Positions 25,852 through 63,095 of a stretch of DNA of 64,000 nucleotides are shown here, one piece after another (position 1 is the first letter of the stretch; each line of letters opens with the position of its first letter). The notes under the pieces were generated by a model. It was not told the origin of the DNA. It made no database searches and saw only the letters and a list, made by a program, of their open reading frames with translations. The stretch comes from Bacteroidales bacterium (GTDB taxonomy: Bacteria; Bacteroidota; Bacteroidia; Bacteroidales; UBA3663): positions 51,294 through 115,293 of the forward strand of contig JAILKE010000014.1 in NCBI GenBank assembly GCA_024694125.1. Reading direction: 5' to 3'. The position numbers and the translations under genes were made by a program.

Positions 25852-26808
25852 TTAACGTATTACCAATTTCTTTCCGTCACAAACATAAATGCCCGGTTTT
25901 AAATTGTCTGAAGTCATATGGATTCCATCTAATCTATAAATGGACTTTTCTTTTTTACCACCTGTATTTGAGATACTGAGAATATCTGTAGTTTCTTCTT
26001 CATCTTCACCTATTAGATAGCGTATAGTCGGAGCGTAATATGGGACAGAAGTTCCATCTCGGTTTTCAATACGAAGAAACCATCTTTGAGGTTTAAGAGA
26101 TCCGGCTTCACTTGCAGCTCTACTAAGACCACCTATAGAATTTAGTGCATAATAATTATTCCCATACATCTCCTTCCCTGAGATTCCTTCATAGGTGCCT
26201 ACAAACGTAAATATCTGCTTCGTAGAAGAGCAATTAATACTATCTCTTTTGGCCGCATGTATAGTTGCATTATTTAAGTTCAAAGTTAAAGTAGTTTGTT
26301 TAGAAGGTTTTATGATATAAGGGAAATTAGCCTCTGTGCTACCCGATTTCAAAATTACGAATTCAATAGTTAAACTATCTAAATTCCCATCACCATTATT
26401 ATCCCACTGGTGAGTGTCAATCAGTTCTCCTATTTTAACGCCTTGGGCTGTGAGAGAATCTACAGGAATAGAAAATGGTACATACAAGGGATGCCAATTC
26501 CCAATTCTGGAGAAGTTGCGTTTGTAAAGAAGATTAGCTGTTGTGTCTGTCGATAGAGTATATCTTTCTCCATCATTAATTTCAATTACAGCAGGTATTT
26601 CAATAATTTTTTTGAAAAGCTCCCAATAGTTCGCATTTTCGTATGCTGATTTGCTGCCTTTGGGAACATATAGAGTTGAACCTCCTCCAGAAGAAGCTTT
26701 TGCCCCTATTGTGGGAGGTATAGATTTTAAGATAATTACCGAATCTGGACAACAAATACTAAAGATATTTTCGCTAATATTTGTAACGCTATTTGGGATG
26801 GTGACATT
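25852..26808 (-). pseudogene. 3' fragment of prophage-interrupted BspA-like LRR_5 surface protein gene
   Basis: Open frame from the AAT codon at 26808 to the stop at 25852: NVTIPNSVTNISENIF...GSTLYVPKGSKSAYENANYWELFKKIIEI...GIYVCDGKKLVIR. Confidence 0.9.
26804..26808. repeat. Target-site duplication ACATT, low-coordinate copy
   Basis: Identical to 63091-63095; removing one copy restores the host ORF. Confidence 0.9.
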
Positions 26809-26941: not shown

Positions 26942-28243
26942 TTAAGTGAATATGTATTTTGTTCGACCTTTTCCAAATGTTTCCGTTTTAATTGTCGTCT
27001 CAAACGGGAACCCGTCCGGCACTTGAGCTATTTGAGCTAGAATATTCTTCATCTCTTCGCTATTTGTGAAAAATTTCTTTGGTTCTCCATTAACCTCAAT
27101 AGAAATAATGCAGCGGTCTTCTCCCTGATCAGTCTTGATTCCGGTCTCAAAATCTTTTACCACAATTGGAAGATTGACTAGTTCTCTAACACTGATAACT
27201 GCACCCGCGAAACGCTTTTTGCCATCTTCGGGTTTGTAGGATACGTTCAAATCTTTGAATGATTTCATATCTATACCTGTAATTTTTTGGAATAAGTTAT
27301 TGCAATCGGCATGCTTTGTCATGCCATAAAAACTTGCGATGAGCTCAGATCTTCGTTTACGGCTCAAGATGTCGTGCATGTGTTGAGCCATTCTCTTCTT
27401 AATACGTTTGCGTATTTTAACGTGAGTAGGATATATAACATAACCGAGAAAGTCGATTCCTTCCTCTATCGGGAAGATTCTTTCGTTCCCCTTCACTTTT
27501 AACTCAATAGAGGATATACGCTCATGTACTATATCTCTAATTGCCCATAACTGGTGCTTGTCAGGAGCAAGGACCACTCCGTCGTCACAGTATCTATAGA
27601 AATATCGAACACCGCATTCATCCTTCAGATAATGATCCAAATACGTCGACAAAAGCAGATTCCCTACACCTTGCGAACTGCGTAGCCCAAGTGATAGCCC
27701 ATGAGGCATTAAGCGGACAAAACCATCTAAAATTTTCAGAAGGGTTGGATCCTTAAATACTCTTTTAAGGCAATACATAGCGTACTCTTGATTGACGCTC
27801 TCATAAAATTTGGAAATATCGAATTTATAACAATATCGGGTACCAATCGGATCTTGCTGAATATCTCGACATATATATTTTAGCAGGTCATGCATACCTC
27901 TTCCTTTAATCGAGGCATTTGTCGTTCGAATAAATCTACGCCGAATATGTTTATCAACAACGGACATAATTGCATGTGCAGCTATCCGATCTCGCAATGG
28001 TAGTATTTGTATTTTCCTAGCTTTGCCCCCTTCAACAATCTCTTTCTCATAGAATGAACTGATTTTAAATGAGCCATTTTCTATCTCCGAAGACAATTCG
28101 GTAATTATATCTTCTTTGTGTGCCAAAAGATAAATGCCTTGCTGCGACTGTTTCCTTTCGGAGCCTCTTAACACCGAATCAAAAGAGAGTAGCATATTAT
28201 GATAATCGATGATTTCTTGGATTATATTACCATCTCTATGCAT
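26942..28243 (-). CDS. DGR reverse transcriptase
   Basis: YKFDISKFYESV, LGLRSSQGVGN (GxxxSQ), YRYCDDGVVL, IDFLGYVIYPTHVKIRKR; adjacent to TR/VR pair; extra C-terminal segment. Confidence 0.95.
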   Translation of the reverse strand: MHRDGNIIQEIIDYHNMLLSFDSVLRGSERKQSQQGIYLLAHKEDIITELSSEIENGSFKISSFYEKEIVEGGKARKIQILPLRDRIAAHAIMSVVDKHIRRRFIRTTNASIKGRGMHDLLKYICRDIQQDPIGTRYCYKFDISKFYESVNQEYAMYCLKRVFKDPTLLKILDGFVRLMPHGLSLGLRSSQGVGNLLLSTYLDHYLKDECGVRYFYRYCDDGVVLAPDKHQLWAIRDIVHERISSIELKVKGNERIFPIEEGIDFLGYVIYPTHVKIRKRIKKRMAQHMHDILSRKRRSELIASFYGMTKHADCNNLFQKITGIDMKSFKDLNVSYKPEDGKKRFAGAVISVRELVNLPIVVKDFETGIKTDQGEDRCIISIEVNGEPKKFFTNSEEMKNILAQIAQVPDGFPFETTIKTETFGKGRTKYIFT

Positions 28244-28440
28244 ATTGCATGATTTATAGAAGGTAAAGGCCTTCCGTCCTTCGGGCCTTACTTCTTCGAA
28301 TCCAATACGGACCTACCAAACTATACCCGATGCTTGATTTTTCACCTTTCCGGCTTACTCAACCGCTGCTGGTGAGGCTCGTTCCCTTCGGCACTACAGT
28401 AGAGACACGTCGCTTTTGTAGGAGGCCGATGTAAAGATGT

Positions 28441-28553
28441 CCAGACGAGAGCCGATGTTCGCGTTCGCATTCGATGGGTCGTTGTTCGCATTCGCACACG
28501 AAACGCCGCCATTCGCGTTCGCGTTATTGTACCCACGGGCAACCACACGGCTG
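28441..28553 (-). repeat. DGR template repeat (TR), 113 bp
   Basis: Minus strand CAGCCGTGTGGTTGCCCGTGGGTACAATAACGCGAACGCGAATGGCGG...CGGCTCTCGTCTGG; 101/113 identical to VR. Confidence 0.97.
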
Positions 28554-28620
28554 AAGGAAACTCTACCTACTATATTAACGGAAAAATTCAATAAAATTGT
28601 ACGGAAAATAAAAAAAATGA

Positions 28621-28672
28621 CCCGCTTCGCGGGAAATAAGTATGGCGTTCGAACATTGTCCGAACGCCATAC
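28621..28672 (-). terminator. Tandem hairpins after the fibre gene: 12-bp stem hairpin then a terminator with T-tract
   Basis: gtatggcgttcg...cgaacgccatac (28640-28672) and cccgc ttc gcggg (28621-28633) followed on the minus strand by a T-rich run. Confidence 0.8.
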
Positions 28673-28710
28673 AACGTTTTGTCGCTTCGCTCCCGCGTTG
28701 ACGCTTTCGT

Positions 28711-31700
28711 TTACGATATCTCGCTCAACGCTTTATACGACGCGACGCTTTGCGCTTTGACGATTTGTCCGCGGAAGGCCAGACGAGAGCCGACGCTCGC
28801 GCTCGCATACGATGGGTCGTAGTTCGCATGAGCACACGAAACGCCGCCATACGCGTGCGCGTAAGCGTACCCACGGGCAACCACACGGCTGGAACTACCA
28901 GAGTAATAATACAGGTCACAATAGCCGGTAGAGGAAGAACCTGTAGCGTTGCCAACAGGTATGACATCGCAATATTTACCATGATAGACACCTCCAATAT
29001 AAGTTCCGGAATTAGTTGATCCCTTCACATTTCGGACCGAGCCATCTGGCATCGTGATGCTCCACAGTCCTGCTCCTGATTGGTTTACCCGAACATTATC
29101 CACCCAATCGTATTTGCAGCCATAAATATCCTCGTAGCCTAAGCAATTGGTACTCTTAATGGACGAATAAACTGCAGTACCATAGGCATCGGTCGAACGA
29201 TAGAATGCGGTTCCTTCCGAGTCATAGCCGCCGACAGTAGTCCCATCTGTATTGACAGTGTCCTGCATGCCCAGCAATGCTGTCGCCCCTGTAGTTCGAC
29301 TGTTCGTATGCGCACCTGCGCCGCATTGCATCTGGGAATTTCGACGTCCATATTTTATATAGAATAGGTTGGCAATATCTCGATGCATCTCGTAGTCGAT
29401 TTGTTGCATGCCTCGTTGGGCGGAATAATCATTGAACGAGGTCCAGGACATATTGCCCAATGTATAATCTCCATTGGCGCAACTACGCAGTTTGTCATTC
29501 ACGACCACACTTCCGAAGACTGCGGTCAAACACTCTTCATGCTCTACCCAGTCAGGCTCCATATCCTCAATCTTGTCACTATTGCTCAATACCACATTAT
29601 CGAAATCCACGGCGGTCGATATCGTAAAATATAGGTACTTAGCGCCTGAAGGGACATCGCAGATCAGATACATGCCATTCTCGAACTTATTTGTGAGAGA
29701 ACTGGCCGTTACAGTGCTGAGAATACCGTCAGATTCATCAACAAAAAGAGAACATTCCAAAGATTCTCCGACTACAGTAGGGAACCTCACGTGGCTATGT
29801 TGACTCACATCAACGCGCAATACAGCATAGCCCGACTTGGCAGACAGACTGTCCTCAATTGTATCATGGTTGCGCAGTAAGATATATCCGTTCCGATATC
29901 CTGCTGTATCAGCTACGAGATCATCCCACGTCTTAACAGTACAATCAGGCGTCGATGGTCTTGACGTACCAAAACTATAGCAGCTATAGTGCTTGTGGTT
30001 CAGATAATCATTGATTCCTTTGAACCAATAATGGGGTTCGTACATCATAACGTCGCCCTCTGATGCATCCAGGTTAGCTGCTGTGGCAGAAGAAACATCC
30101 TCCGAATCCGCGTAGAAATTAGAGTCATCGTCATGAAGTTGGCAAATAGTAGCAACTCCAGCACCTGTTATTTTAGACAACACCCTGTGACGTGCCGACA
30201 AAATAGCATTGATATGAGCGCTTGGAACATAGTCATTACCGTATTTGTATCCGGTTTTGTTGTCCAGATTCGATACGTTGGCATCATCAGACACACTATC
30301 GTCGAACTCAACCATAGTATACTCCGGTTGAATAATATTAAGTTCCGGGAAGTGAGCCGAAGCTGTGGCGTATGTTTCGTCGTCCATATACTTGGTTAGG
30401 TGGACGGTGCCAACTAAAGCACAAGTCGTCGTCGTATTGCCTTCGCTATCGATACCACCCAAGTTCATGAACGAATTGAGCCATGTGCCATCATCTTCTC
30501 TGTCAATTCCAGTGACTCGCAGTCTCTCCAGGTTTGGGCATTGATTCTTGATTGTTTCCCAGTCCAAGCCAGGGCAATTGTCAAACACCATCGATACGAC
30601 ATTGGAATAGCCTGCAATATTCAGTCCCGACATCGTAAGTTTCGGCAAGTATTCCAGGTAGAGGTATTTTATTGTGTCGGGCAAGATGGCAGAAGTGACA
30701 GGCGCACCTTTAGCGAATATAACACTATACAGTCTCGTACCACCGCAATCGAGTGACTGTAGCTTTTGCTGCTGACTTAGATCCAGTTCCGTGGATGTGG
30801 TACTTCCTGTTCGGGCCTGTTGCTGCCCATTGAGGTTCAATACGCGCAATTGCTTACACCCCGACAGCATCATATACCAGCCCGTGCTGCCAGAGCCATT
30901 GGACGTCATCACGAACTCACGGAGATTAGAGCAGAACGAGAGATCCAGCGCATTCTTTATGTTATCACCAATTCCACTCATATCCAATGTGACCATCCTG
31001 CTGGCGCCATACATGCGTATCGGGTCATTGATTGTACGAGCACCGGAGATAGACATCACAGCCTCTGTGCCGGCCTCTACGACACCCGTATTATATTCAT
31101 TTGGGTTGTTGATGGTGCCATATCCATACGCATACTCCTCACTACCCACGATTCGAATAGTATTGGCTTCCTCGTCTGTCGTGCGGCTTACGTAACAATC
31201 GATGAGATCTGCGCGAAAATCAGCAGTACCATACTTGGCATCCAGCAATGCTGCTCTGTTAGTCCACAAGAATGTTCGGTGAGTCTCGCATGATCCTTTC
31301 AATGCATAGATGAACGGCCAGGTTCGGCCATAAGTCTCTTCGATAGCAGGAGTCACATACTTGAAGATTCCGCTCTTGTTGTACTGCCGCTTTGACCAAT
31401 TACCCATTTGTTCCTCGTCAAACATGGTCAATACTCTGTTGGTCGTCATCTTCGTTCGGAAGTTGGCTGCCGCAGTTTTAATATCTTCCATGCAATTTGC
31501 CAGCAGCATATTCCACAACCAGCTATCGTGACCCTCGAAGGCATACTTGGAAGCTTCTGCATCCCAAGTCTCTCTCTTCAACGTATAGTCATATTTCAAG
31601 AATGAATCATTGCGGCGTCCCAGGGCTGTATCACCGTCGTAATAGGTGATATACCATATTAGTCCATCCCAAGTACGAAGCAACATATTCTTGGCGCGCT

Positions 31701-34700
31701 GATCTACGCTCATGAAGTAATCAGTGAAGACATACCAAGTGCACAGATGCTGGCGGTCGAAATAGTCATCCAGTTCAGAAGCAAATTTTGAACTTACCCA
31801 TGTCGAGATATCATCTGCATCTGCTCCGGCTGGCACGCAATCACGTATCCAACCCCACAAGCGTTTGATTGCGGTTTCCTGCTCTGTCGTCCAAGAAGTG
31901 GTTGTAACATCTTCTGGATAGTTGAACTCGCAGGCAGCATCAAAATTAGCAGTCAGGTCTTCGTCGCTGTCGGATTGGAAAAGACATGGACGGGCTGTGT
32001 TGTTGAGAAACTCCAGAGTAATTGGGCATACAGGCTCAAATCCATCCACGCCTTCCATTCCGAAGAGTTTGCCACTCTTTGACTTCTCATTGTTGAAGTT
32101 GTACTGGCCATAATAGGTATTCTCGCCGTCATCCGTCTCACTACCGAAGATATCAATCGGGAATCCATCTATAGCAGACCGGACAGATATCGCGCTTAGG
32201 ACCTCGCCTCCGTTCTCATACTCATATTGCTGGGGCGGAGTCAACAGCCCTAGCTCCTTCATCACGTCGTTGTAAAGCTTAGCCACGCCGGTGTTGAGTG
32301 CCATTGATGAATCTGAGTAGTCGGCCTTCATACAGAAGACGTTGTTGGCGATGCTGGTAGGCCGCATTTTATACTTACGGTTTTCTTGAAGGCTTCCATC
32401 GACATACAGTGCCAATTGCTCTCCTCCCTTATTCATATAGATGCGGTAATTCTTGCGTGGATACTTGGTCGACGAGGTACCCTGTATGCGCACATAGCAA
32501 TCCTTCAGTACGAAGTCATACTCCGAACCCATTGGTGAATAGAAGTAGATATCGCACTCGAAATCTGTCTTCTTATTATTCGTCATATTGAGTTCATCGA
32601 GGCCTCCGGTTCGAACGAAGCGCATTACACCTCTACCTCGTTGACGCAATACATCTATATCGACTTCGTTCTGTCCGCCCATGACATCATTGTCGTCATA
32701 TAGTTCAAGCATCTCATCCGCATCTGTCCTGTCCACGATGTAATTCTCTAGGAGTTCGTCATCGCTCAGGCACCGATTGTATATACGGATGTTCCTCAGT
32801 TCCACATCAGCCTCGTCACTTTGTATGACGAGGTTTTGAGCATCACCCTGCATAAAACTGAAAGTGCGGTCATATAGGTCGGCACTTGATAGAACGCCAT
32901 TCAGGTATAGTTCCATCAGACGCGATTCACTACGTGGCTGTATGGCAAAGGCAACCTTCAGCCATTCGTTTGGAGCATATTTCGAAGACAACTCTATGTC
33001 ACGAGTTACTTCGTCTCCATCCTCATTGGTATAGGTCACTGAAGTGCCCGTCTTGAAGCTTGCCTCCTGAGTCGTGACCGACAGGCCCATTCCATTGTCT
33101 ATGCACGAGATTACATTATAGGATCGGTCTGCAACGTTGCTCACTTTGATCTCGAACTCGACAGTCAAGCCAGTCGATGCTGCGTCGGTTTCGAATGGTT
33201 TGTAATCCAGTTCCACCTTCGCCCCATTAGTTAGTTTCAGGCTAGAACCCGTCCATCCGTTCGAACTCCAATCGAAGCCCGTTAGAACGGCACTATAATC
33301 GCCAGAGGTCCACTCTGCTGGCGAGGACTCCCCATTACTGCGGCCATCGGCACTCCATTTCGCAACGAGACCGTACGTTGCTTCACTTATCTCCACACCG
33401 CCATCGACTACTTCTATGTTCAATGTTGCTACACTTTCCCCGACACCGATTGCAAGCAAGTAAGTCCCTTGCTCTGCAAAACGGTTAGTTATAGTCTGTA
33501 CTGTTCGTGGCGCGCTGAGGGTTGCAATGGTTACTCCATCTCTCAGGACGGTCACGGTAGCGGGCGTCTGAACTGGATCATAAGCAACAAAGCTTATCTC
33601 CATGCTACGATATTGCCCCACTGATATAGATGGAGTTTGTGACGGACCGAAGATACGTCCGTCGCTGTTCACTATCTTTAACCCTACGAAAGGAGCACCG
33701 CTGCCTTGTATGCAGAAGTCCATATATATACTCTCGCTCAACAATGTCAGACTCTCGCTGGCAGCCATCTCTGCGACCATCTGCAAGCTGTGTTTGCCGG
33801 CAGATAGGCCTGCCATACTTACAGAGAAACTTCCGTTGGTAGTACCAGAACGAGTAATGGTTTGGCTATCGGCTTGGACTCCGTCCAGATACAACGTCAC
33901 TACTTTGCTGCCAGTGCCCGTGATGGCAAAAGGAATGCTCAGATTCCCTTCGGCAGAATATCCTCCGTTGCTTAGTCCCGAGGCAATGCTATAGCTACTG
34001 GTCAGGGACAACGATACGACCTTGACACTGACGTATGCCTGTTTTCTTTGCTCCGTACCTGTTGTCGGATCTGTAGTCGTGGCAAGCACGTACACGTCAT
34101 TGGTTCCGGACAGCAGATAGTCGCTGAGGTTCAAAGTGTAGGAACCCTTACTGATATCCTGCAATGTATTTGTATATGCCACTGTTGTTCCTCGCTTCAC
34201 CGTGATGGTGATGGTGGCCTTTTGTCCTGTACTTTCGCCATTGGCGTCTCCACTGTTGTACTGATGGTCATACGAGTAGGTCAATACGGCACTGCTGCCT
34301 TCCTTTATTATGCTTTGGTCCACCGCGGCCGAGAGCACGACCTTAGTCGTCGAGCCTGACCCGCTGCCCCCGGAACCTGCTGGGATCTCGAAGCTCGTTA
34401 CCACACCACCCTGCTGGTTGGTAAGTGATACCGTCACGGTGTTACCATCCTCGCTTGTCTCCACATCGGAACCAGATATGGTATTGCCCGACAACTCGTT
34501 TAGTCGGCTTGCGACAGCCTTGTTTTGCACTGGATTAGTGCTTTCAGTATCCAGGCTTTCGTCCACTTGTACCTCCTCGATTACCAGATTGACATTACCG
34601 TCTTCGTCTGGATCAATGGTGGTCCCATTCAAGGTCAATGATTTGACAGTTCCAGCCCCGCCGAAGTCAACCCAGCTGGCAGTCTCCGTCCAGGTGGTTA

Positions 34701-35535
34701 GAGACGTTCCGACAAATTGCTTGGTCTCCCACTTACCCACGGTTGTCTCATACGTGATGCAGCATCCCTTGCAGCGTCGCTTCTCTTCTACTGCAGCTAT
34801 AGCCGTTGACAATGTATAATAACCGGACTCAAGTGGATACACGGTCGTGACGTTGATGGTGTTGCCGCCTCCGGAACTGCTCGCCTCCGTCAGTGTTGCA
34901 TCATCCTCGCTCCAGGCATACAGTGTCTCGCCCAACAGATAGATCTTATCCTTTAATATCTGGGTCCGATCTGCGGACATATACAGATCTGCAGTATCCC
35001 ATTCACCATAGTAAACATCTCCACTTTTAGCAGCGAAACAACCGGCAGATTGCAGGTAATAGATTCCATCAACGGACGGAGCGGTGCCGCTTTGCAGCGT
35101 TATCTCTCCTTCTACTATGCCGTCTATACGTGTTGTTGCACCTCGAGCACCGGCATTTGCCGTGACCTCATACTCTTCTGCTATTTGCTGGACCACTTCT
35201 GCAGCGGCAATGGCGTTCGTTGTCGCCGCATCGGCTTCATCCGCTGCTAGAGTAGCTGCATCCTTGGCCGCCACTGCGTCCGTTGCAGCTGCATCTGCCG
35301 CACTCGCCGCTGCAGACGCCTCTGCTGCAGCAGTATTGGCAACAGCAGCAGCCTCTGTTGCAGGCGCTCCGAGGAGTGACAATGGTGCCCGCACCACATC
35401 ATCTCCCCTCATAGCCGGCAGTGAATCTATACCGTCCAACGTGGACACTTCCTCAAGCGCATCGGCAGATTGGCTATTGGCCTCAATTTGATTGAGAACC
35501 TCTTCGATGATTGTAAGCTTCTCTTCGTCTGTCAT
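28711..35535 (-). CDS. DGR-diversified giant tail fibre/adhesin
   Basis: Ala-rich coiled-coil N-terminus, Ig-like segments, LamG-like, CotH-like and LRR-like regions, C-type-lectin-like C-terminus ending at VR. Confidence 0.9.
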   Translation of the reverse strand: MTDEEKLTIIEEVLNQIEANSQSADALEEVSTLDGIDSLPAMRGDDVVRAPLSLLGAPATEAAAVANTAAAEASAAASAADAAATDAVAAKDAATLAADEADAATTNAIAAAEVVQQIAEEYEVTANAGARGATTRIDGIVEGEITLQSGTAPSVDGIYYLQSAGCFAAKSGDVYYGEWDTADLYMSADRTQILKDKIYLLGETLYAWSEDDATLTEASSSGGGNTINVTTVYPLESGYYTLSTAIAAVEEKRRCKGCCITYETTVGKWETKQFVGTSLTTWTETASWVDFGGAGTVKSLTLNGTTIDPDEDGNVNLVIEEVQVDESLDTESTNPVQNKAVASRLNELSGNTISGSDVETSEDGNTVTVSLTNQQGGVVTSFEIPAGSGGSGSGSTTKVVLSAAVDQSIIKEGSSAVLTYSYDHQYNSGDANGESTGQKATITITVKRGTTVAYTNTLQDISKGSYTLNLSDYLLSGTNDVYVLATTTDPTTGTEQRKQAYVSVKVVSLSLTSSYSIASGLSNGGYSAEGNLSIPFAITGTGSKVVTLYLDGVQADSQTITRSGTTNGSFSVSMAGLSAGKHSLQMVAEMAASESLTLLSESIYMDFCIQGSGAPFVGLKIVNSDGRIFGPSQTPSISVGQYRSMEISFVAYDPVQTPATVTVLRDGVTIATLSAPRTVQTITNRFAEQGTYLLAIGVGESVATLNIEVVDGGVEISEATYGLVAKWSADGRSNGESSPAEWTSGDYSAVLTGFDWSSNGWTGSSLKLTNGAKVELDYKPFETDAASTGLTVEFEIKVSNVADRSYNVISCIDNGMGLSVTTQEASFKTGTSVTYTNEDGDEVTRDIELSSKYAPNEWLKVAFAIQPRSESRLMELYLNGVLSSADLYDRTFSFMQGDAQNLVIQSDEADVELRNIRIYNRCLSDDELLENYIVDRTDADEMLELYDDNDVMGGQNEVDIDVLRQRGRGVMRFVRTGGLDELNMTNNKKTDFECDIYFYSPMGSEYDFVLKDCYVRIQGTSSTKYPRKNYRIYMNKGGEQLALYVDGSLQENRKYKMRPTSIANNVFCMKADYSDSSMALNTGVAKLYNDVMKELGLLTPPQQYEYENGGEVLSAISVRSAIDGFPIDIFGSETDDGENTYYGQYNFNNEKSKSGKLFGMEGVDGFEPVCPITLEFLNNTARPCLFQSDSDEDLTANFDAACEFNYPEDVTTTSWTTEQETAIKRLWGWIRDCVPAGADADDISTWVSSKFASELDDYFDRQHLCTWYVFTDYFMSVDQRAKNMLLRTWDGLIWYITYYDGDTALGRRNDSFLKYDYTLKRETWDAEASKYAFEGHDSWLWNMLLANCMEDIKTAAANFRTKMTTNRVLTMFDEEQMGNWSKRQYNKSGIFKYVTPAIEETYGRTWPFIYALKGSCETHRTFLWTNRAALLDAKYGTADFRADLIDCYVSRTTDEEANTIRIVGSEEYAYGYGTINNPNEYNTGVVEAGTEAVMSISGARTINDPIRMYGASRMVTLDMSGIGDNIKNALDLSFCSNLREFVMTSNGSGSTGWYMMLSGCKQLRVLNLNGQQQARTGSTTSTELDLSQQQKLQSLDCGGTRLYSVIFAKGAPVTSAILPDTIKYLYLEYLPKLTMSGLNIAGYSNVVSMVFDNCPGLDWETIKNQCPNLERLRVTGIDREDDGTWLNSFMNLGGIDSEGNTTTTCALVGTVHLTKYMDDETYATASAHFPELNIIQPEYTMVEFDDSVSDDANVSNLDNKTGYKYGNDYVPSAHINAILSARHRVLSKITGAGVATICQLHDDDSNFYADSEDVSSATAANLDASEGDVMMYEPHYWFKGINDYLNHKHYSCYSFGTSRPSTPDCTVKTWDDLVADTAGYRNGYILLRNHDTIEDSLSAKSGYAVLRVDVSQHSHVRFPTVVGESLECSLFVDESDGILSTVTASSLTNKFENGMYLICDVPSGAKYLYFTISTAVDFDNVVLSNSDKIEDMEPDWVEHEECLTAVFGSVVVNDKLRSCANGDYTLGNMSWTSFNDYSAQRGMQQIDYEMHRDIANLFYIKYGRRNSQMQCGAGAHTNSRTTGATALLGMQDTVNTDGTTVGGYDSEGTAFYRSTDAYGTAVYSSIKSTNCLGYEDIYGCKYDWVDNVRVNQSGAGLWSITMPDGSVRNVKGSTNSGTYIGGVYHGKYCDVIPVGNATGSSSTGYCDLYYYSGSSSRVVARGYAYAHAYGGVSCAHANYDPSYASASVGSRLAFRGQIVKAQSVASYKALSEIS
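28779..28891 (-). repeat. DGR variable repeat (VR) in the C-terminus of the fibre gene
   Basis: 12 mismatches to TR over 113 bp; 11 at template A (coding strand), 1 at template G; encodes SRVVARGYAYAHAYGGVSCAHANYDPSYASASVGSRL. Confidence 0.97.
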
Positions 35536-53401: not shown

Positions 53402-53650
53402 ATGAAGAAAATCTTTAGTTTTTTGTCACAATCTAACCGCTTTTGGCATTTATTGGGCGGTTTTGGCGTCGCAATCATCACGTTGCATGCAGGTTACGCA
53501 ATCTACTCTGCCTTCGTGGCAGCCACTTGCCTGGAACTCAAGGACCATCTCTACCAACGTAAGGCTGACTGGATTGATTGGGTTCTCACCTTCGGCGGCG
53601 GATTGCTCGCAGCTTTGGTTATCTTGATCCTGAAGTACATCAATCTCTAA
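53402..53650 (+). CDS. Small two-TM membrane protein (holin-like or immunity candidate)
   Basis: 82 aa: FWHLLGGFGVAIITLHAGYAIYSAFVAATCLELKDHLYQRK...GGGLLAALVILIL. Confidence 0.5.
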   Translation: MKKIFSFLSQSNRFWHLLGGFGVAIITLHAGYAIYSAFVAATCLELKDHLYQRKADWIDWVLTFGGGLLAALVILILKYINL

Positions 53651-53661
53651 CAGTTAGCAAT

Positions 53662-54153
53662 ATGAATTATTCTAGAGTTTCTGGGCCAGCCGACGCTCCT
53701 TGCATTGAGTGTATCAATCCGGTACGTGGACGCTGGTGCATCCGCTGGGACTATCAACCCGACGCCGACAATTCGGCGCTGGCGTCTTACATAGAGTGCA
53801 CGCTGCAGCACAAGCCCTCTGCCTCCGAGGTCACTGACATCATTACTGCCTGGGTCAATCAGCAGGTGGATCAACGGATCTTGCAGGGGCTTACATTTGA
53901 GGGCTCCGTCGTTTGGCTCTCCATCGAGAATCAACTGAACTACAAGTCTGCTTACGACCTCGCAGTTCAGACCGAGGGAGAATCGCTGCCCGTTGTCATC
54001 AAGATGGGACCGGAGGAAGCACCGGTTTATCGGCAGTTCTCTGATCTTACCGATTTTTCCAGCTTCTATCATGATGTCGTCAACCATATCGAACGCAGCA
54101 TCGCATGGGGATGGGAGCAGAAGGACGCCATTGATACTACTCTATATACTTAG
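53662..54153 (+). CDS. Hypothetical phage protein
   Basis: MNYSRVSGPADAPCIECINPVRGRWCIRWDYQPD; likely ATG at 53662. Confidence 0.6.
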   Translation: MNYSRVSGPADAPCIECINPVRGRWCIRWDYQPDADNSALASYIECTLQHKPSASEVTDIITAWVNQQVDQRILQGLTFEGSVVWLSIENQLNYKSAYDLAVQTEGESLPVVIKMGPEEAPVYRQFSDLTDFSSFYHDVVNHIERSIAWGWEQKDAIDTTLYT

Positions 54154-63090: not shown

Positions 63091-63095
63091 ACATT
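63091..63095. repeat. Target-site duplication ACATT, high-coordinate copy
   Basis: Identical to 26804-26808. Confidence 0.9.

Follow-up and report, generated by a model that had tools for sequence, protein, structure and literature searches.

The locus considered here raises the question of whether a reverse transcriptase (RT) gene and two similar repeats at one end of a prophage constitute a working diversity-generating retroelement (DGR), and how such an element could operate without its usual helper protein, Avd. The cassette was analyzed within a window of 64,000 nucleotides, that is, the whole stretch of DNA under study, which covers positions 51294-115293 of contig C78 in an assembly of 2.97 Mb and 102 contigs. 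With high confidence, it is best explained as an Avd-less DGR of the Bacteroidota-phage (hankyphage) type, located where the tail operon of a Mu-like prophage in a gut-type bacterium ends.

The first line of evidence comes from the repeats. The template repeat (TR, 28441-28553, minus strand) and the variable repeat (VR, 28779-28891, minus strand) align without gaps along 113 bp and differ at 12 positions, of which 11 are a template A. Since only 25 of the 113 TR bases are A, the hypergeometric probability of finding at least 11 of 12 mismatches on this base is 8e-8. The remaining mismatch, a G>T change at TR position 28493, is silent (GCG>GCT). Codon-by-codon comparison showed that nine of the ten AAY codons in TR are altered in VR, together with one ATC>GTC change. 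As regards possible IMH/IMH* homing signals, TR/VR divergence begins directly after the common GGCTCTCGTCTGG, and two extra A mismatches occur past the repeat edge at 28440 and 28438, where homology fades. An earlier note on this DNA had reported the repeat coordinates, strand, length and mismatch counts, along with the adenine bias and the codon changes; realignment returned all of these values, and the codon changes were reproduced exactly. Its statement that a randomized AAY codon yields 15 amino acids and no stop also agrees with the genetic code, in which NNY codons encode 15 amino acids and include no stop codons. A search of the bacterium's own genome found no second VR.

The enzyme encoded beside the repeats points in the same direction. 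The RT has 433 aa (26942-28243, minus strand) and carries the catalytic motif YCDD and the GxxxSQ motif, both its reading frame and the latter motif having been correctly described before. The motif reads GLRSSQ, and its G, S and Q are invariant across 40 aligned sequences. The best PDB sequence match was 8ub7, a DGR RT (E 4e-24), and the AlphaFold model (pLDDT 85) gave the 8ub7 RNP as its top fold match, with a TM score of 0.89 on the target and an rmsd of 2.4. By sequence and predicted fold, the closest solved relative is the Bordetella BPP-1 DGR RT: residues 3-318 are 29% identical to BPP-1 bRT over nearly its full length, and about 100 extra residues lie beyond the aligned part. An origin from a group II intron, a retron or a defense (DRT) enzyme, next to an unrelated duplication with a chance A bias, would find some encouragement in weak matches to group II intron RT (72 bits), Drt3a (43 bits) and UG17 (88 bits). 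However, the first two NCBIfam matches fall far under their cut-offs of 300 and 200 bits, the retron RT model reaches 40 bits against a cut-off of 235, and the UG17 model also matches BPP-1 bRT at 100 bits. The earlier note had pointed to a group II intron or retron affiliation as the outcome that would speak against a DGR, and both models score far below cut-off. This origin is refuted by the PDB and fold matches, by an A bias that recurs in relatives, and by A-only VR change among them; it is considered extremely improbable.

The cassette occupies one end of a Mu-like transposable prophage of 36,282 bp (26809-63090). An exact 5-bp target duplication, ACATT, flanks it at 26804-26808 and 63091-63095, and the interrupted host gene is a BspA-type leucine-rich-repeat (LRR) gene whose flanks, when rejoined, restore a single in-frame BspA-type LRR protein (LTNV joined to TIPNSV). 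The ends of the prophage are therefore precise. Homologues of Mu portal, Mu F and Mu Gam are present, as are a phage transposase (phrog_310) and head and tail genes; Mu-type genes and a 5-bp target duplication, the two marks of a Mu-like transposable phage, thus occur together. Along the minus strand the order is target with VR, hairpins, TR, RT-3 RNA, RT and prophage end, the RT being the last gene before the end of the 36.3-kb element. An inverted match of 19/20 bases, which may be due to chance, links 26737-26756, in the host gene immediately beyond the end of the prophage, with 30256-30275 in the target gene.

The target gene (28711-35535, minus strand) encodes a tail protein of 2274 aa with a CotH-like domain and the VR at its C-terminus, about 22 codons separating the end of VR from the stop codon. 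A C-type lectin fold has been reported for the hankyphage target (PMC6199706); sequence searches with the VR domain studied here gave no PDB or Pfam match to such a fold. Two hairpins follow the gene. A 15-pair hairpin between the target stop codon and TR (28640-28672, minus strand) may serve as a terminator and/or a DGR stem-loop, and a short GC hairpin with a T run behind it (28621-28633, minus strand) is likely the terminator of the tail operon. The hairpin after VR was also considered as a conserved DGR signal; this was rejected because only part of the relatives have it, its distance varies among them, and it cannot be told apart from a terminator.

Comparison with relatives extends the evidence from anatomy to activity. 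Related loci were collected from bacterial genomes (60) and from IMG/VR (80); nearly all of their RTs show 57-74% identity, the lowest being 41%. TR/VR pairs were sought within the fetched flank with a scoring blind to base type and were present in 54/133 loci, the window included, which gave 49 unique pairs. Across these pairs, changes affected 38.5% of A sites, as against 0.9% of C, 0.3% of G and 3.7% of T sites, the T differences coming mostly from three related loci (L028, L096 and L139). A clear TR-like segment was found in 57 of the 75 other loci with enough upstream sequence. Five records of this kind were searched whole, and four of them contain a second copy, on the strand opposite to the TR and about 25 kb from it. 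This arrangement, in which TR and RT lie together and the VR is that distant, characterizes a subgroup of relatives (L004, L066, L089 and L112 with their records).

Among near-identical relatives, which have 0-1 differences over 1200 nt of RT and show no difference in the 300 nt before VR, the VR differs at 7-19 sites, every one of which is a template A. This is direct comparative evidence that DGRs of the family are active, in line with the read mapping by which hankyphage DGR activity was demonstrated (PMC12135933). Substitutions spread across all bases, which the earlier note had named as contrary evidence, are not what the relatives display: their VR changes concentrate at template A. The exact TR pattern had no match in IMG/VR, and so no sibling phage was at hand for VR comparison. 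A TR search in 15 genomes of the same genus recovered only the copy described here; a single distant DGR was present, in G013. A second, divergent DGR (L145:1-1835) lies in a genome of the host genus other than the one studied here; its RT is 44% identical and has the C-terminal domain discussed below.

Taken together, the A-specific TR/VR divergence, the BPP-1-like RT, the C-terminal VR in a tail protein and the A-only VR differences of relatives confirm the DGR interpretation proposed earlier, to which the present analysis adds the prophage context, the RT-3 RNA and an extra C-terminal domain of the RT. The cassette could instead be a formerly active one, now frozen in a defective prophage. 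Activity in this particular prophage is something we infer, the assembly is fragmented into 102 contigs, and one mismatch lies at a non-A base; the cassette could also be silenced without a visible lesion. Such decay is nevertheless unlikely, since an old silent pair would show changes at every base type, and since no damage is seen in the RT (with YCDD and GxxxSQ), the target, TR, the RT-3 RNA or either end of the prophage. The DGR of this prophage is probably an intact and working copy.

The 150-nt spacer between TR and RT provides a further conserved component. It matches the Rfam model RT-3 (RF03068) over its full length at 28282-28431 on the minus strand, with 128.5 bits against a gathering threshold of 40.5. 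The same RNA was found at the same place in 12/13 tested relatives, the divergent L060 giving no match, and also in hankyphage p00 and two further Bacteroides phages. Covariation is strong: an alignment of 37 spacers has 98% of its cells paired, a value that falls to about 50% when partners are shifted by one base, and 21/32 pairs have changed on both sides, compared with 11.9 +/- 1.8 in shuffles. When one spacer strand was folded with DNA parameters, the result was not unusual; the case for its structure comes from covariation. The spacer of BPP-1 is folded, and it both recruits bRT-Avd and provides the cDNA-priming adenine (PMC12875486); by analogy RT-3 should play the same part here. The Rfam title of RT-3 names no role, and a limited search found no literature tying it to DGRs, a link that is not claimed as new.

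The description of the DGR as complete holds for TR, VR, RT and target, all of which are present, and does not extend to an Avd gene, whose absence is normal for the lineage. No ORF for it exists between target and RT. Avd is essential in BPP-1 (PMC12875486), and an accessory-gene homologue is missing from about a quarter of DGRs (PMC7290462), so its absence does not decide DGR membership. Lineage 3 DGRs, as defined by Wu et al. 2018, have the order target-TR-RT and no avd (PMC7290462). Both features were found here, and by gene order and avd absence the element apparently belongs to the hankyphage or lineage 3 type.

The DGR might nonetheless depend on an Avd-like protein whose gene lies at another place in the prophage or in the host, the extra domain of the RT then having another role. 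Several observations bear on this. The host genome does contain a match to the bAvd model on another contig, but at 23 bits it is below the cut-off of 40. The same model found nothing in 20 related phage records, whereas the BPP-1 record scores 123 bits. The hankyphage literature does describe an accessory ORF in the vicinity of the RT (PMC12135933, PMC6199706), although the first report proposed it from isoelectric point and size only (PMC6199706), and neither of the two small ORFs tested beside the hankyphage cassette matches bAvd. Moreover, the homologue of the hankyphage post-RT ORF (DUF4376, 46% identical) sits here at 53578-54153, 25 kb from the RT. A separate Avd-like protein is thus a possible but rather doubtful requirement.

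The preferred candidate for this function is the fused C-terminal domain of the RT (residues 340-433; 26945-27226, minus strand), which overlaps phrog_19665. It can be recognized in nearly all intact relatives (one motif recovered it in 125/133 loci, L053 carrying a motif variant and the rest being frame-broken), and many of its alignment columns are invariant among relatives. Modelled alone (pLDDT 86), it shows an OB-like order of three strands, a helix and two strands. Its PDB fold matches are all weak (E 0.09-0.7) and include Teb1 OB-A, a telomerase-associated domain that was the best of them, PRD1 P12 and human SSB; among viral models, the matches were to RTs of other phages and to ssDNA-binding proteins of phages (E 2e-6 to 3e-3). 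The fold is probably OB/ssDNA-binding-like. Given that no Avd match was found and that the homologue of the hankyphage post-RT ORF is unlinked to the RT here, the chances that this domain takes Avd's part stand at about even.

LoVEphage was examined as a possible source of a stand-alone C-terminal domain. Its seemingly separate protein proved to belong to an RT gene that is divided among three frames, so it provides no evidence for a separate helper. When the RT domain and the SSB-like protein of LoVEphage were compared as profiles, no match resulted. In LoVEphage-type phages (L170:4802-6345 and L171:4802-6345), the DGR RT gene lies in three overlapping frames and adjoins a good TR/VR pair of 118 nt, 86% alike. 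Throughout the group this split RT may be broken, or else its gene may be read by frameshifting.

A mechanism can be outlined around what was observed, namely the anatomy, the A-only divergence, the structured spacer, the type of RT, the prophage context and the A-only VR change between near-identical relatives, and around the roles that we infer for the RT-3 spacer RNA and the RT C-terminal domain. TR would be transcribed along with the RT-3 RNA, which the RT would bind before beginning cDNA at the 3' end of TR, presumably primed there. The enzyme would then copy TR while misincorporating opposite A, and the resulting cDNA would replace VR by a presumed retrohoming step, so that the tail protein of 2274 aa would change at its C-terminal tip. 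This tip could vary at up to 10 Asn codons and one Ile codon, the Asn codons allowing in principle up to about 6e11 receptor-binding-tip variants (15^10), and the phage would presumably alter what its tail tip binds, and perhaps its host range. In a broader and evenly balanced proposal, DGRs of Bacteroidota phages would work by a variant mechanism: an OB-fold-like domain carried on the RT itself would stand in for the separate Avd protein, and RT-3, an orphan Rfam family, would be the spacer RNA that both recruits this RT and primes cDNA. The details of the cassette suggest how the Avd-less type works without the usual helper protein. Nearly every family member tested has RT-3 precisely in the interval from TR to RT, and this placement, together with a conserved nucleic-acid-binding-like domain where Avd is missing, opens the working of Avd-less DGRs to a simple genetic test.

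Among named systems, the cassette is a further well-preserved example of one already known from gut phages, and its closest named relative is the DGR of Bacteroides hankyphage p00 (BK010646). Both share the target-VR-TR-RT order, the RT-3 RNA and a Mu-like phage background; the hankyphage RT is 70% identical and has the same C-terminal domain, and its target is likewise a large CotH-type protein, 54% identical, while the DNA is only about 68% alike. Hankyphage p00 carries genes past the RT (DUF4376, thymidylate synthase and methyltransferase), whereas here the RT is last and DUF4376 lies elsewhere. The crAssphage LMMB DGR (lineage 3, Wu et al. 2018), likened here by its published description, also presents target-VR-TR-RT without avd (PMC7290462), but belongs to another phage group and has a 486-aa target. 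BPP-1 shares the A-specific TR/VR change, the C-terminal VR in a tail protein, the RT fold (TM 0.89) and a structured spacer between TR and RT, whose role was described in BPP-1 (PMC12875486). It differs in that Avd is encoded between VR and TR and in that its RT, 328 aa long and 29% identical, lacks the C-terminal domain.
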